A stretch of 64,000 bases of DNA from Leptolyngbya sp. CCY15150 (GTDB taxonomy: Bacteria; Cyanobacteriota; Cyanobacteriia; RECH01): contig NZ_JACSWB010000172.1 in assembly GCF_016888135.1 (NCBI RefSeq), positions 1-64,000 of the forward strand, given 5' to 3'. The notes below the pieces were generated by a model, which did not search any database, was not told where the DNA came from, and saw only the letters and a list, made by a program, of their open reading frames with translations. Below, piece after piece: positions 57,597 to 64,000 of the stretch (position 1 is its first letter; each line of letters opens with the position of its first letter). The translations under genes were made by a program, and so were the position numbers.

Positions 57597-57909
57597 AAGC
57601 TTAGCCCATTTGCTTCGCTTCAGTTCAACAGGTCTGCCGATAGAAGGCTGTTGCAGATGATGACGATGACCGGAGGACTTGCTCGCCCAGGCTAAAGATT
57701 TACATGGATGCCGCTGACGTTCAGGCTTGTGGCTGTAAAGATAGAAAAAGATCAGTATCCTTACGATTCTCTAGCGGGATATCACGAGCGGTGGGATAAC
57801 TCTTGAGATCTCCCATGCTAGGGTTACCCCCAGACAGGGTTCACAGGATTGGGGTGCATGACCTTCGCTAAGATTACTCATCCGTTCCAACGTCACAAGG
57901 TGGTTTATC
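57597..57909. other. Divergent intergenic region upstream of the TPS-CHAT gene
   Basis: About 310 bases between the DUF815 gene (minus) and the TPS-CHAT gene (plus). Only the last 17 bases before the ATG (CACAAGGTGGTT-ATC) are conserved with the second copy at 62528-62544, and they include AAGGTGG, a ribosome-binding site. No gene is present. Confidence 0.6.
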
Positions 57910-60900
57910 ATGGCTCAAAAGCTGGGACAGGAGCGATCGCTCTCCCAAGTAGGTGTGATCACGGTTATGGGATTGCTGTGGGTGTCGCTGCCCGTGCAGG
58001 CCCAAGTTACACCGGGGCAGGATGAACTGGGAACGGAGGTGCAACAACGGGGCGATCGCTTCCTCATCCAAGGCGGCACCTTGTCTGGAAATGGTGAAAA
58101 CCTGTTCCATAGCTTTGAAGACTTTGGGCTATCGCCAGGGCAGTTAGCCAACTTTCGCACCGATGCTGAGGTACAGACCATCCTGGGTCGGGTCGTAGGC
58201 GGTAATCCTTCGCTGATCGACGGTTTGATTCGGGTGACGGGCAGTAATGCTGACCTAGTGTTGATGAACCCGGCGGGCATCTTGTTTGGCCCCAATGCTC
58301 GGCTAGACGTTCCAGCATCCTTCACCGCCACCAGTGCCGATCGCATTACCTTCGGCGATCGCTTCTTCAGCAGCACCGAGAGCAGTGACTATCGCGCTTT
58401 GCTAGGACAACCCGATGGCTTCACCTTCCGATTGAGTGAACCGGGAGCGATCGTTAATGCGGGACGGCTGCAGGTGGATCCAGGTGCATCGATTACCCTC
58501 CTGGGCGGCACCGTAGTGAATACCGGCACGCTGATCGCCCCTGGCGGCACCATCACCCTAGCGGCGGTGGAGGGGGAGCAGTACGTACGTCTTCAATCCG
58601 AGGGCATGCTCCTCAGCCTTGACTTGGAAGCAGCTCCGACGACAGGTACACTACCGCTGAGCGCCCCCTCTCTGCCGGAACTGCTGACCCTCCCCGGTTT
58701 GCGCCATGCCACCGGCGTGCAGGTGAATCCAGACGGTACGGTGGTGCTCACCGGCTCTCAGATCGCCATTCCTACCGAGGCAGGGACAGCGATCGCTTCG
58801 GGACGCTTAACAACCGCGAGTGCTGAGTCTCAGGGATCTCAGATTAATATCCTGGGCGATCGCATTGGCGTTCTGGACGCTACCCTCAATGCTTCAGGGC
58901 CCACGGCGGGGCAGGTGCGTATCGGCGGTGGTTACCAGGGCAATGATCCGATTCCCAATGCCCAAACGACGGTGGTCAATGACGGTACCAGTATTCGTGC
59001 GAATGCCCTAACGCCCCAAGCCGAAGGAGGCGAGGTGGTGATCTGGTCAGACGGTACCACCAGCTTTGCCGGACAAGTTCTCTCGCGAGGAGGAAACGGT
59101 GGGCAAGGTGGCTCGGTGGAAATCTCCGGACGGGAGAATCTGCAGTTTCGTGGACAGGTGGATACCCGCACTCCCAACGGCACACCTGGCACCCTGCTGC
59201 TGGATCCAGAAAACATCCTGATCGTAGCCGGAGATGGCCCAGCTCCTGATGACAATCAACTGGCTGATCAACAAATCCTGGCGGGCGATGCGCCCGGCAG
59301 CACGTTTACCATTTCCCAAGCGGCGCTAGAAAATGCGCTGCAAAATGCCGATACGATTCTGGAAGCGACGAATGATATTCGCATCGAGCCCCTCAACGGC
59401 GGTGAGTTGTTCGGTACGTCCCTGGGTTACTCCCTCACCTTCATCGCTGATTCAGACAACAGCGGCGCGGGCACCTTTCGCATGAGCCGTAGCGATACTA
59501 TTTCCACCATCGGCGGCGATATCAATATTTCTGCAGCACGCATTATTGCAGGAAATCTCAACACCAACAATGACTTTGGGGTGGGTGGAACGGTTAATTT
59601 AATGGCCGGAGACTCCATTCTGGCTGGCAACATCTCAACCTCAGGCGAGTTTGCCGATTCTGGGGATGTGCGCATGATGGCTGGCGGCGATATCCAGGCT
59701 GGTGGAATCGACACCTTCCCCATCAGTGAGGGCGGCAATGTTGCTGGTGATGTCACCATCCTCAGCGTCAATGACCCTGACAATCCCACTGTGGATATTC
59801 GCGCCCTGCCCAATCTAAACAGGGCGACCAATCCCGCTGGGGATGTCACGGTTGAATACATCGATGCATCGAGCTTTTTTGGACAAGGGGGCGATGTCAC
59901 CCTCACAGGCGATCGCGTTTTGATTACAGGACGGACGTTTAATGAAGGGGGTGCGCCTAGTATTGATACCAGGGGCGATACTATTTTTGCCCCGACTGAA
60001 CCCACTGAACCTGGCCCCATTGAACCTGGCCCCATTGGCCCCGTCCTTCCCATGCCCATTGGCGATAGTAGTGGTCAGGTACGCATTACCCATGCGGGTG
60101 GCCCCGACAATGTGCCCTTTACCGTGGGGGATGTGTCTAACCTCAACGGTACGGCGTTTGATATTGTGACCGGCATGGTGACACTCACGGAGGGGACGGC
60201 CAATAGCGTATTTCCTGTGCCTGAGACCGGGGAGAATGTACGTACGTTTAATAACATCAGTGGTGATGAACGCATCCGTATTACTGGGGTGAATGCAGCG
60301 CCTACGCTAACGGCGATCGCCACTCCGATTGAGACCGATATCGACCAGCCCATTCGCCTAACCTATGAGGATTTGCAATTGCTGGTGGGCGATCGCAACA
60401 ATGACAATACGGTGGTGCGGTTGGTGGCAGTGATTGGGGAACTACGGCGCAATGGCGTCCTTCTCGTCCCCGGTGATATTATTTCTCCCGGTGATGAACT
60501 GGACTACCGTCCACCAGCAGGTGAAACGGGTCTGATTGCCGATGCTATTACCTTGAGTGCTGGAGATTTCAATCAGGGCGTTCCCATTTTGGCGGAATCT
60601 GACCCCGTGGCGATCGCGGTTAATATCCAGGTCGAGGAACCGCCTGAACCACCGGAGCCACCGGAGCCACCTGAACCACCCGAACCGCCGGAGCCACCGG
60701 AACCGCCGGAGCCGCCTGAACCACCCGAGCCGCCGGAGATCACGCTGCCACCAGGGGCCATTTGTCCACCGTTCTGTGGGGCCGAACCACCCGAACAGGC
60801 CCAGCCGCCCTTACCCAGCGAAAGTCCGATTCCCATCGCCACTATTGATGAAGGGCAAATTGTCCTGCAAACCATTGAGGAAGAAACCGGGGTCAAGCCT

Positions 60901-62088
60901 GCCATTCTCTATGTAGACTTTGTGCCCCAAACGCTAACGCTGCCCCATGACTTTAATGCGCTCGAAACAAGTACCACTGGCGATATTGCCGATCATTTAG
61001 ATCGCTTTATTGACCCAACGTTGCGAGTGATTCCAGAACCCAGTCCTGACGATATCTTAGAACTGCTGCTGGTGACCTCGTCTGGCAGTCCTATCCGAGT
61101 GACGGTGCCTGGCGTGACCCGCCAACAGGTGCAAGATATGGCCGACTCAATGCGCCAGCAGATTACTAATCGTCTGAGTCGTCCTGAGCAATATCTGCCG
61201 CCCTCTCAACAGCTTTACACCTGGCTGATTACGCCCATCTTGGCGGATCTGCAGGAGCAGGAGGTGGAAAATCTTGTCTTTATTATGACCGCGGGATTGC
61301 GATCGCTCCCCGTGGCGGCGCTCCATGATGGCAATCAGTTTCTGGTGGAGCAGTACAGCCTGGGTCTAATGCCCAGTCTCAGCCTCACGGATACCCGCTA
61401 TGTGGACATTCGCGACACGTCGGTGTTGGCCATGGGAGCCTCGGAGTTTACCGATCAACTGCCTCTTCCAGGGGTGCCCTTAGAAGTGCAGGGGATCACC
61501 GAGGATCTGTGGCGAGGACAAACCTTCTTGAATGAGGCGTTCACGTCAGATAATCTACGCTTCCAGCGATCGCAAACCCCCTATGGCATCGTCCATCTGG
61601 CCACCCACGGTGAGTTTAAGCCGGGCAATCTCGCTAATTCCTACATTCAACTGTGGGATCAGCAGCTTAGCCTAAGCGATATTCGTCAACTGGGGCTCGA
61701 CAGTCCGGCCGCGGAACTTTTGGTGCTCAGCGCTTGCCGCACGGCCTTGGGAGATGAAACGGCGGAACTGGGCTTTGCGGGCTCGGCGGTGCAGGCTGGG
61801 GTGAAGTCGGTGTTGGCTAGCCTTTGGTATGTGAGCGATCGCGCCACTCTGGTCTTTATGCGAGAGTTCTATACCCAACTGCGCACGGCTCCGGTTAAAA
61901 CCCATGCCCTGCAGGCTGCCCAACAGGCCATGCTCCAGGGTGATTGGCAGGTGGAACGAGGGCAGTTGGTCGACCGAGAGGGCGATCGCCTGATTTTGCC
62001 ACCTTCCCTAGTTTTCGATGGTAGTGGCGATGATCTGTCCCATCCTTTCTACTGGGCAGCCTTCACCATGGTGGGAAATCCTTGGTAG
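57910..62088 (+). CDS. Secreted TPS (filamentous haemagglutinin N-terminal)-CHAT protease protein
   Basis: A 1392-residue exported protein. A signal peptide (LPVQA cut after residue 31) is followed by a TPS/haemagglutination-activity domain (about 32-270) with NPAGILFGPNARLDVPASF. Glycine-rich beta-helix sequence continues to about 780, and a cadherin-like segment (APTLTAIATPIETDIDQPIR, about 795-905) follows. Next are eleven EPP triplets (910-942), then a C-terminal CHAT domain (about 1000-1392). CHAT is a caspase-like cysteine protease fold: the catalytic His is in HLATHGEF (1233) and Cys in LSACRTALG (1276). TPS proteins normally cross the outer membrane through a TpsB pore, which is not in this window. 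Both catalytic residues are intact, so it is predicted active. A near copy follows. Confidence 0.9.
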   Translation: MAQKLGQERSLSQVGVITVMGLLWVSLPVQAQVTPGQDELGTEVQQRGDRFLIQGGTLSGNGENLFHSFEDFGLSPGQLANFRTDAEVQTILGRVVGGNPSLIDGLIRVTGSNADLVLMNPAGILFGPNARLDVPASFTATSADRITFGDRFFSSTESSDYRALLGQPDGFTFRLSEPGAIVNAGRLQVDPGASITLLGGTVVNTGTLIAPGGTITLAAVEGEQYVRLQSEGMLLSLDLEAAPTTGTLPLSAPSLPELLTLPGLRHATGVQVNPDGTVVLTGSQIAIPTEAGTAIASGRLTTASAESQGSQINILGDRIGVLDATLNASGPTAGQVRIGGGYQGNDPIPNAQTTVVNDGTSIRANALTPQAEGGEVVIWSDGTTSFAGQVLSRGGNGGQGGSVEISGRENLQFRGQVDTRTPNGTPGTLLLDPENILIVAGDGPAPDDNQLADQQILAGDAPGSTFTISQAALENALQNADTILEATNDIRIEPLNGGELFGTSLGYSLTFIADSDNSGAGTFRMSRSDTISTIGGDINISAARIIAGNLNTNNDFGVGGTVNLMAGDSILAGNISTSGEFADSGDVRMMAGGDIQAGGIDTFPISEGGNVAGDVTILSVNDPDNPTVDIRALPNLNRATNPAGDVTVEYIDASSFFGQGGDVTLTGDRVLITGRTFNEGGAPSIDTRGDTIFAPTEPTEPGPIEPGPIGPVLPMPIGDSSGQVRITHAGGPDNVPFTVGDVSNLNGTAFDIVTGMVTLTEGTANSVFPVPETGENVRTFNNISGDERIRITGVNAAPTLTAIATPIETDIDQPIRLTYEDLQLLVGDRNNDNTVVRLVAVIGELRRNGVLLVPGDIISPGDELDYRPPAGETGLIADAITLSAGDFNQGVPILAESDPVAIAVNIQVEEPPEPPEPPEPPEPPEPPEPPEPPEPPEPPEPPEITLPPGAICPPFCGAEPPEQAQPPLPSESPIPIATIDEGQIVLQTIEEETGVKPAILYVDFVPQTLTLPHDFNALETSTTGDIADHLDRFIDPTLRVIPEPSPDDILELLLVTSSGSPIRVTVPGVTRQQVQDMADSMRQQITNRLSRPEQYLPPSQQLYTWLITPILADLQEQEVENLVFIMTAGLRSLPVAALHDGNQFLVEQYSLGLMPSLSLTDTRYVDIRDTSVLAMGASEFTDQLPLPGVPLEVQGITEDLWRGQTFLNEAFTSDNLRFQRSQTPYGIVHLATHGEFKPGNLANSYIQLWDQQLSLSDIRQLGLDSPAAELLVLSACRTALGDETAELGFAGSAVQAGVKSVLASLWYVSDRATLVFMREFYTQLRTAPVKTHALQAAQQAMLQGDWQVERGQLVDREGDRLILPPSLVFDGSGDDLSHPFYWAAFTMVGNPW
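60637..60735 (+). repeat. (EPP)11 coding repeat
   Basis: Eleven 9-base units of the form GARCCNCCN encode Glu-Pro-Pro eleven times, placed between the cadherin-like segment and the CHAT domain. Synonymous variation between units shows it is selected or old rather than a fresh slippage product. It should form an extended, stiff spacer. Confidence 0.9.
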
Positions 62089-62544
62089 GGACGAGAGCAT
62101 AGTCCTGGCTGCACGAGTGCGACCCAGTCTCCGATATCGGGCTATGGAATCGGGCTATGGAATCATGTGCAAACCCCTTGTCGTCTGGGCAAGGGGTTTT
62201 GCATAGGACAAGGCTCTCTGACTAGGTAATTTCCCACAGCAAACAACCGTACAATGTAGTCATCCATTTAGTCATCTCTATCTTGAGTTGCTTGCTGAAG
62301 GTGAGGTGAGGGCGATCGCTCAGATGATGGGATGCAAGAATCAGGATCACAGCCGATGGGAGCAGGAAGCTTTCAGCTTATGTCCTAGTCAGAGTCCTGG
62401 GTTTGTTCAACCTGCGCCACCGTCCTTGAACTCACCTGCCAATTTGCTTTAAGACCATCAGGCAACAGGGCCCGGTTCGTAGCCTAGTTCGCATCATGTC
62501 GCTCATCGTCACATATCCGGTCTACTATCACAAGGTGGTTCATC
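62089..62544. other. Spacer between the tandem TPS genes
   Basis: About 455 bases holding a terminator (62169-62202) and then non-coding sequence. The final 17 bases before the second ATG (CACAAGGTGGTTCATC) repeat those before the first gene. No coding frame of note. Confidence 0.6.
62169..62202 (+). terminator. Intrinsic terminator after the TPS-CHAT gene
   Basis: GCAAACCCCTTG (62169-62180) pairs with CAAGGGGTTTTGC (62190-62202) with one bulged T, 9-base loop. The 3' arm supplies TTTT. It lies 80 bases after the stop codon, so the second copy needs its own promoter. Confidence 0.8.
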
Positions 62545-64000
62545 ATGGCTCAAAAGCTGGGACAGGGGCGATCGCTCTCCCACGTCGGTGTCATCACGGT
62601 TATGGGGTTACTCGGGGTCGTTTTGCCGGTGCAGGCTCAAGTGACACCGGGGCAGGATGAACTGGGGACGGAGGTGCGCCGCCAGGGCGATCGCTTCCTG
62701 ATCCAGGGCGGTACGTTGTCTGAGAATGGTGCAAACCTATTTCATAGCTTTGAAGACTTTGGGCTCTTGCCAGGGCAACTGGCCAACTTTCGCACCGATG
62801 CCGAGGTACAGACCATTCTGGGTCGGGTCGTAGGCGGTAATCCTTCGCTGATCGACGGTTTGATTCGGGTAACGGGCAGTAATGCCGACCTACTGTTGAT
62901 GAATCCAGCGGGCATCGTGTTGGGGGCCAATGCTCGGCTAGATGTCCCAGCATCCTTCACTGCTACCAGTGCCGATCGCATCACCTTCGGCGATCGCTTC
63001 TTCAGCAGCACTGAGAGCAGTGAGTATCAAACCTTGCTAGGACAACCCGATGGCTTTACCTTCCGATTGAGTGAACCGGGAGCGATCGTCAATGCGGGAC
63101 GGCTACGGGTGGATCCAGGCGCATCAATCACCCTCCTGGGCGGCACCGTGGTGAATACGGGCACGCTGATCGCCCCTGGCGGCACCATCACCCTGGCGGC
63201 GGTGGAGGGTGAACAGTATGTACGCCTTCAATCCGAGGACAGGCTCCTTAGCTTTGAGCTGGCTGCCATACCCTCCGCCGGTGGCATTCTGCCGTTGACC
63301 GCCCCCTCCCTGCCAGAACTGTTGACTCGCCCCGGTTTGCGCCATGCCACCGGCGTCCAGGTGAACCCAGACGGCACCGTGGTGCTCACCGGCTCCCAGA
63401 TCTCCATTCCTACAGATCCAGGAACAGCGATCGCCTCGGGACGGTTGGCAACGGCAAGCGTCGAGTCTCAAAGGTCTCAGATTAATATCCTAGGCGATCG
63501 CATTGGTGTCCTAGACGCTACCCTCAACGTTTCAGGGGCCACGGCGGGCCAGGTGCGCATCGGCGGCGGCAACCAGGGGGAGGATCCCATACCCAATTCC
63601 CAAACGACGGTGGTCAATGACGGGACGCTGATTCATGCCAATGCTCTCACGCCCCAAGCTGAGGGGGGCGAGGTGGTGATCTGGTCTGATGGTGCGACCA
63701 GTGTTTCTGGGCAGATTGGAGCCCGAGGGGGCGAGGGGGGCCGGGGTGGCTCAGTGGAAATCTCAGGAGGGGAGTCTCTGCGATTCCATGGCCGGGTGAC
63801 GACCCGCACCCTCAACGGCACCCCCGGCACCCTGCTGCTGGATCCAGAAAATATCGTGATTGTGGCCGGAGCAGACTCGGCTCCTGATGACGATCAACTA
63901 GCCGATCAACAAATCCTGGCGGGTGATGCGCCGGGCAGCACCTTTACCATTTCCCAAGCGGCCCTAGAAAATGCTCTGCAGAGTACCAATACAATTTTGG
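62545..64000 (+). CDS. Second TPS-domain protein, tandem paralogue (3' end outside the window)
   Basis: The frame is open from ATG 62545 to the window edge, 485 codons, with no stop. It aligns almost residue for residue with the first gene: MAQKLGQGRSLSHVGVITVM, signal peptide ending LPVQAQ, then the TPS domain (NPAGIVLGANARLDVPASF) and TLLLDPENIVIVAG. Changes are scattered substitutions, including a few in the TPS core (for example FGPNAR to LGANAR), with about one-residue gaps. It has the same ribosome-binding site context. Whether it ends in a CHAT domain cannot be seen. Confidence 0.92.
   Translation, partial: MAQKLGQGRSLSHVGVITVMGLLGVVLPVQAQVTPGQDELGTEVRRQGDRFLIQGGTLSENGANLFHSFEDFGLLPGQLANFRTDAEVQTILGRVVGGNPSLIDGLIRVTGSNADLLLMNPAGIVLGANARLDVPASFTATSADRITFGDRFFSSTESSEYQTLLGQPDGFTFRLSEPGAIVNAGRLRVDPGASITLLGGTVVNTGTLIAPGGTITLAAVEGEQYVRLQSEDRLLSFELAAIPSAGGILPLTAPSLPELLTRPGLRHATGVQVNPDGTVVLTGSQISIPTDPGTAIASGRLATASVESQRSQINILGDRIGVLDATLNVSGATAGQVRIGGGNQGEDPIPNSQTTVVNDGTLIHANALTPQAEGGEVVIWSDGATSVSGQIGARGGEGGRGGSVEISGGESLRFHGRVTTRTLNGTPGTLLLDPENIVIVAGADSAPDDDQLADQQILAGDAPGSTFTISQAALENALQSTNTIL

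Follow-up and report, generated by a model that had tools for sequence, protein, structure and literature searches.

The DNA analysed here, referred to as the window, is a stretch of 64,000 nucleotides from Leptolyngbya sp. CCY15150. We focused on two adjacent genes at its end. Both encode proteins that begin with a haemagglutinin-type two-partner secretion (TPS) domain and finish with a CHAT protease domain. The pair sits on a contig of 129 kb; the genome, that of a cyanobacterium, has 5.75 Mb. All window features below are on the + strand. Copy 1 (57910..62088) is an open reading frame (ORF) of 1392 codons in which Pfam models detect TPS and CHAT. Copy 2 (62545..64000) runs out of the window, and the original prediction left its C-terminus to be checked. 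The contig sequence past the window carries the ORF on to C172:66234. Hence, copy 2 encodes 1229 amino acids (aa) and also terminates in CHAT, with intact His and Cys. The genes encode tandem TpsA exoproteins. We see a roughly even chance that they represent the fused version of a pairing between TPS proteins and exported CHAT proteins found across TPS-bearing cyanobacteria.

Briefly, copy 1 consists of five regions. A Sec-type signal peptide is predicted heuristically, by reading the sequence, at residues 1–31 (57910..58002; ...GVITVMGLLWVSLPVQAQ). The TPS domain follows at residues 32–233 (58003..58608; PF05860, E 9e-42; TIGR01901). Its counterpart in copy 2 occupies 62638..63243 (PF05860, E 1.6e-41). 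Hence, the TPS domain anticipated for both genes is present, and the signal peptides are predicted from the sequence. The passenger (58609..60635) contains apparently β-strand-rich repeats and is the part most diverged between the copies. Its AlphaFold2 (AF2) model, built from six sequences, had a predicted local distance difference test score (pLDDT) of 49 and was too poor for use; many strands fell at around residues 265–620. Next is an (EPP)n proline-rich spacer (60636..60738), encoded by 9/18/27-bp tandem repeats according to Tandem Repeats Finder. Alignment showed that copy 2 lacks it. The spacer and a further stretch described as cadherin-like do exist, in copy 1 only, but we rejected the cadherin label because no Pfam model supports it. 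The CHAT domain spans residues 1097–1390 (61198..62079).

Alignment of the two copies showed 87% identity in the N-terminal halves (480 aa), so that "near-identical" was too strong a description. Identity was only 64% in the centre and 93% in CHAT. Ratios of non-synonymous to synonymous substitution (dN/dS) were lowest in CHAT (~0.09), followed by TPS (0.14) and the centre (0.22). We conclude that the whole gene is under purifying selection, which is strongest in CHAT. The nearest named relative of the copy 1 protein is from Leptolyngbya sp. DLM2.Bin15 (95% over CHAT). This strain also has a tandem pair. Each copy is closest to its counterpart, with copy-by-copy identities of 95.3% and 93.7% versus 92.3% crosswise. 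Hence, the duplication predates the split.

The 30 bp ahead of the copy 1 start codon (57880..57909) include a Shine-Dalgarno-like AAGGTGG and are common to copy 2 (80%). Beyond this segment, the upstream regions were unrelated by blastn. Between the genes, CCCCTTG...CAAGGGG followed by TTTT (62174..62196) could form a hairpin terminator. This was read by eye; its loop is too long for the hairpin scan used. The original prediction proposed looking for a TpsB gene nearby. There is none on the 129-kb contig, and the four ShlB-type TpsB matches in the genome are all on other contigs.

The CHAT domain and its structural relatives

Copy 1 matched the Pfam CHAT model over positions 2–289 of 289 (PF12770, E 5.5e-71). 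The catalytic residues named in the original prediction are both in place. His1233 (61606..61608) lies within HLATHGEF and Cys1276 (61735..61737) within LSACRTA. These two residues were invariant in 63/63 aligned CHAT domains, including all 50 that are TPS-linked or TPS-fused. We modelled residues 1001–1392 with AF2 using 43 relatives. The result was a confident CHAT fold (mean pLDDT 89.8; predicted template modelling score 0.89). In the model, His233 and Cys276 come just after successive core strands (227–231 and 270–273), as they do in Csx29 and separase. We conclude that both copies contain an intact CHAT cysteine protease domain with a His/Cys dyad. Its proteolytic activity is predicted.

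Foldseek placed the TPR-CHAT protein Csx29 of Craspase first (E 1.5e-12, about 14% identity). Next in rank came DdvA, an anti-sigma factor, and then separase, SAVED-CHAT, gingipain and caspases. The link to Csx29 comes from the fold search only, since a sequence-profile (A2) search of the PDB gave no match even at E 10. A Csx29-type protein was rejected as an identity for copy 1, which scored 20.7 bits against NCBIfam NF041237 (cut-off 300 bits). A PADLOC match to BovA (E 5e-10) was confined to the CHAT part.

Although Csx29, from type III-E CRISPR systems, is the closest structural match, it is cytosolic and RNA-gated by Cas7-11. The window proteins are predicted to be exported, Pfam finds no TPR in copy 1, and the surrounding region showed no Cas genes. 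Separase, SAVED-CHAT, HetF and other PF12770 peptidases share the His/Cys dyad and the fold, but are intracellular or complex-bound and lack a fused secretion domain. DdvA (PDB 8rot/8rw5) carries CHAT on a membrane protein and keeps both motifs in the match; unlike the window genes, it is an anti-sigma factor with no TPS domain. Gingipain RgpB (PDB 4ief, 1cvr; E 4e-5) is an exported clan-CD cysteine protease. However, it uses type IX secretion and is unrelated in sequence at this distance.

Coupling of CHAT to two-partner secretion in cyanobacteria

Fusions of TPS and CHAT are not peculiar to this strain. Contigs were scanned with fused CHATs as queries, yielding 79 loci from named cyanobacteria; many of the matches without both domains were cut by contig ends. 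These loci contain 67 further ORFs with TPS and CHAT together, from genera including Nostoc, Anabaena, Oscillatoria, Microcoleus, Coleofasciculus, Symploca and Okeania. Hence, as had been guessed, the architecture is already present in public databases. A proline-rich stretch ahead of CHAT is common in the fusions, though not universal. One fusion (L129) has TPR-like repeats before CHAT; this TPS-TPR-CHAT protein arose separately, by joining of an operon. At L113 (9085–14411), the reading frame shifts within a repeat encoding (EP)n, which splits a TPS-CHAT gene in two and parts CHAT from the adhesin. This may be a sequencing error or a slippage-prone switch.

In the source genome, each of the 8 TPS genes is accompanied by CHAT: three are fused to it, and the others have it within their locus. 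This genome holds 40 CHAT matches over its 5.75 Mb, a large expansion. Contigs C223, C138 and C301 carry several of them within arrays of genes for putatively exported TPR-CHAT proteins. We then sampled 80 TPS neighbourhoods from a further 26 genomes, all in a sample of the phylum. These genomes are related and of one class, so p-values overstate independence. CHAT ORFs occurred in 41 of the 80 loci. Only 5.0 were expected from per-genome CHAT density, and the maximum in 200,000 simulations was 17. Such separate CHAT genes are mostly co-directional with, and downstream of, the TPS gene (34/43), and several overlap it. Representative examples encode TPR-CHAT proteins with no TPS domain. Most of the separate CHAT proteins pass a crude, heuristic signal-peptide test. 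A separate TPR-CHAT protein is the most frequent form of the pairing.

Phylogenetic analysis placed 41 of 43 TPS-linked CHATs in one clade, within which 6 of 7 fused CHATs nest. This CHAT subfamily was detected in 32/32 TPS-positive genomes versus 2/20 TPS-negative genomes, and one of the two TPS-negative members carries an internal stop. All 17 TPS-positive genomes that gave no sequence to the subfamily model also contained it.

Where a separate CHAT accompanies TPS, the loci were enriched for three gene types: DUF928 (p 1e-6), TpsB (p 4e-5) and CHAT-CHASE2 (p 1.8e-4). Unfused TPS-CHAT loci, often with DUF928 and CHAT-CHASE2 genes, include L049 (14634–19174), L050 (12375–13097), L153, L126 and L122. 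DUF1822 is also present in L049, and L107 and L160 each have DUF1822 and a sigma-70 region 4-like gene. Proteins of ~770 aa whose N-termini look Tat-like (NRRRFLQAAG / KRRHFLQ...) are encoded at L054 (9852–12146), L055 (5974–8328) and L058 (1651–3960), repeatedly beside genes for putatively exported TPR-CHAT proteins that lack TPS.

TPS proteins that are not fused to CHAT have a C-terminal tag. Its consensus is [IV]VEAQGW-x5-G-x-V-x-LVA, then Cys ~17 residues further (also written VEAQGW..G.V.LVA...C). We built a profile from 61 tails and counted matches no more than 60 residues from the C-terminus. The tag was found in 90/100 non-fused TPS proteins versus 0/74 fusions. Therefore, CHAT replaces the tag. 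No Pfam or NCBIfam model for the tag was found among the proteins tested.

At L114 (6027–10409, −), L121 (8934–13325, +) and L154 (9797–14122, +), one ORF of ~1450 aa encodes a TPS exoprotein joined to the TpsB transporter that serves it. Each is directly followed by a separate TPR-CHAT gene. In the L154 fusion, the tag stands at the junction, immediately before the TpsB part. TpsB starts with POTRA domains, which are periplasmic. Hence, the tag, and by analogy CHAT, would be on the periplasmic side.

A proposed periplasmic protease for TPS exoproteins and rival explanations

The explanation that we favour, at about even odds, is that CHAT is exported, probably to the periplasm, and serves there as a protease specific to TPS exoproteins, acting at their C-terminal end, with the fusion as the cis form. 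The precursor would be exported through the Sec pathway. Its TPS domain would engage a TpsB encoded elsewhere in the genome, and the passenger would thread outward and fold. The C-terminal CHAT would remain periplasmic, as a plug holding the adhesin. Once activated, CHAT would make a cut close to the C-terminus, either in the passenger that it is attached to or in an adjacent TPS protein. The outcome could be release or maturation. Separate TPR-CHAT proteins would act likewise in trans by recognising the tag. The architecture, dyad, fold, selection, linkage, co-occurrence and mutual exclusion of tag and CHAT are observed here, whereas export of CHAT, its location, its activity, the TPS protein as substrate and release as outcome are inferred. 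With less confidence still, the scheme may be extended to a protease-coupled form of two-partner secretion in cyanobacteria, in which an exported CHAT, in trans or fused, recognises or replaces the tag and so controls anchoring or release of TPS proteins.

Several observations weigh against this scheme. About half of the sampled TPS loci have no local CHAT. Within genomes, the TPS and CHAT trees correlate weakly (Mantel p 0.045). Some linked CHATs failed the signal-peptide heuristic (e.g. L052, L126, L135 and L050 2747), partly because of start-codon choice. The tag is just as frequent where the TPS protein has no CHAT nearby (59/61), and it resembles passenger rungs (ATGV..DGTV.LTG). Because so many TPS proteins without a neighbouring CHAT carry it, the tag may serve not for recognition by CHAT but as a general β-helix cap or an anchor in the outer membrane.

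The original prediction suggested that the protease acts on or outside the outer membrane. Our analysis supports an intact CHAT domain on an exported TPS protein, but that location now appears less likely than the periplasm. TPS passengers are normally exposed, and the proline-rich spacer common before CHAT could extend the domain outward, where its targets might be proteins of neighbouring cells, of predators or of the cell that makes it. Conversely, no TPS domain is present in the separate partners, which leaves them without a known route across the outer membrane. In addition, the tag that CHAT replaces is at the periplasmic end of the TPS+TpsB fusion, and the TpsA C-terminus stays in the periplasm in HMW1 and HxuA (PMC5422565). 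For these three reasons, we prefer a periplasmic CHAT and consider display on the surface quite improbable. Surface shaving, self-recognition and predation defence, all suggested earlier, found no direct support in this analysis.

The main rival is signalling. Here, the exported CHAT and the TPS protein would sense the cell surface and signal inward, for instance to nearby membrane CHAT-CHASE2 proteins. Cleavage by CHAT would act as the switch, perhaps within a predicted system of programmed death or conflict. Consistent with this, CHAT-CHASE2 and DUF928 are enriched around separate CHATs, and the transmembrane anti-sigma factor DdvA bears a CHAT domain (8rot). Caspase-CHASE2 genes have also been described with extracytoplasmic function (ECF) sigma factors and DUF1822 (Kaur et al. 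2021, PMC8195603), and our sample contains single examples of both. However, sigma and DUF1822 genes are rare (2/41 loci each), and CHASE2 genes are near only 5 of 62 named fused loci and absent beside the window's pair. We judge both the inward signal and the switch unlikely.

CHAT might instead be mainly a C-terminal plug or anchor, with the dyad kept merely for folding or regulation. Exact replacement of the tag is what would be expected if both hold the protein. A passive plug would not need the invariant His and Cys seen in 50/50 linked or fused domains, which makes this explanation very improbable. Least credible is a contact-dependent effector, in which CHAT is a toxin-like module delivered to other cells in polymorphic-toxin style. 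CHAT is at the C-terminus of a TPS protein, and caspase-like domains have been named as occasional C-terminal toxins (PMC3482391). However, here the C-terminus is conserved and the middle variable (93% versus 64% identity), the opposite of polymorphic toxins, and the separate version of CHAT has no delivery domain. No immunity-like gene was seen among ORFs of at least 80 aa before copy 2 or at least 150 aa after it. On the grounds of the divergence pattern and of the lack of an immunity-like gene among these ORFs, we rejected a polymorphic-toxin or contact-dependent inhibition system.

Relation to described systems

Like the TpsA proteins FHA, HMW1, HxuA and CdiA, the window proteins have a predicted Sec signal, a PF05860/TIGR01901 domain immediately after it and a long repetitive passenger. 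They differ in ending in a protease and in having no adjacent TpsB gene. Known proteases for TpsA maturation, such as SphB1, are encoded outside TPS operons (PMC5422565), whereas here CHAT genes are in, or on, the TPS gene. TPS-borne proteins in a survey of polymorphic toxins have HINT rather than caspase-like proteases (PMC3482391). The proposed system would resemble sortases and type IX secretion in its logic of tag plus protease, but uses a caspase relative. The EACC2-caspase-CHASE2 / ECF sigma / DUF1822 systems of Kaur et al. share CHAT-CHASE2 genes with many unfused TPS-CHAT loci. Conversely, that report includes no haemagglutinin or TPS proteins (PMC8195603), and no genes of this kind lie beside the fused pair of the window.

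A search of 5.39 million open-access articles in PMC, as distinct from subscription papers, returned no description of CHAT linked to two-partner secretion in cyanobacteria. Searches there for CHAT with haemagglutinin, DUF928/CHASE2 or periplasm found nothing on such a link. Hence, to our knowledge, the systematic coupling of TPS to CHAT and the mutual exclusion of tag and CHAT are undescribed. Cyanobacteria have CHAT genes by the dozen in each genome, and many TPS proteins. Linkage, co-occurrence and exclusivity give both families one concrete, testable common role. If a periplasmic CHAT does process TPS exoproteins, two-partner secretion gains a dedicated protease. The envelope would then also host a branch of the caspase family that is familiar chiefly from cell division and from defence inside cells.

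Two reports concern Nostoc. The peptide SLSLLGGTVV was reported from water extracts of Nostoc NIES-2111 and assigned to a CHAT protein (PMC9895726). It resembles the TPS region, but at E 0.012 the match is too weak to show secretion and we set it aside. Among phage-resistant Nostoc substrains, RD5 is mutated in a gene of the filamentous haemagglutinin N-terminal (TPS) type, and RD2 in the CHAT gene all2170 (PMC10811720). These mutations possibly link TPS and CHAT proteins to phage adsorption.

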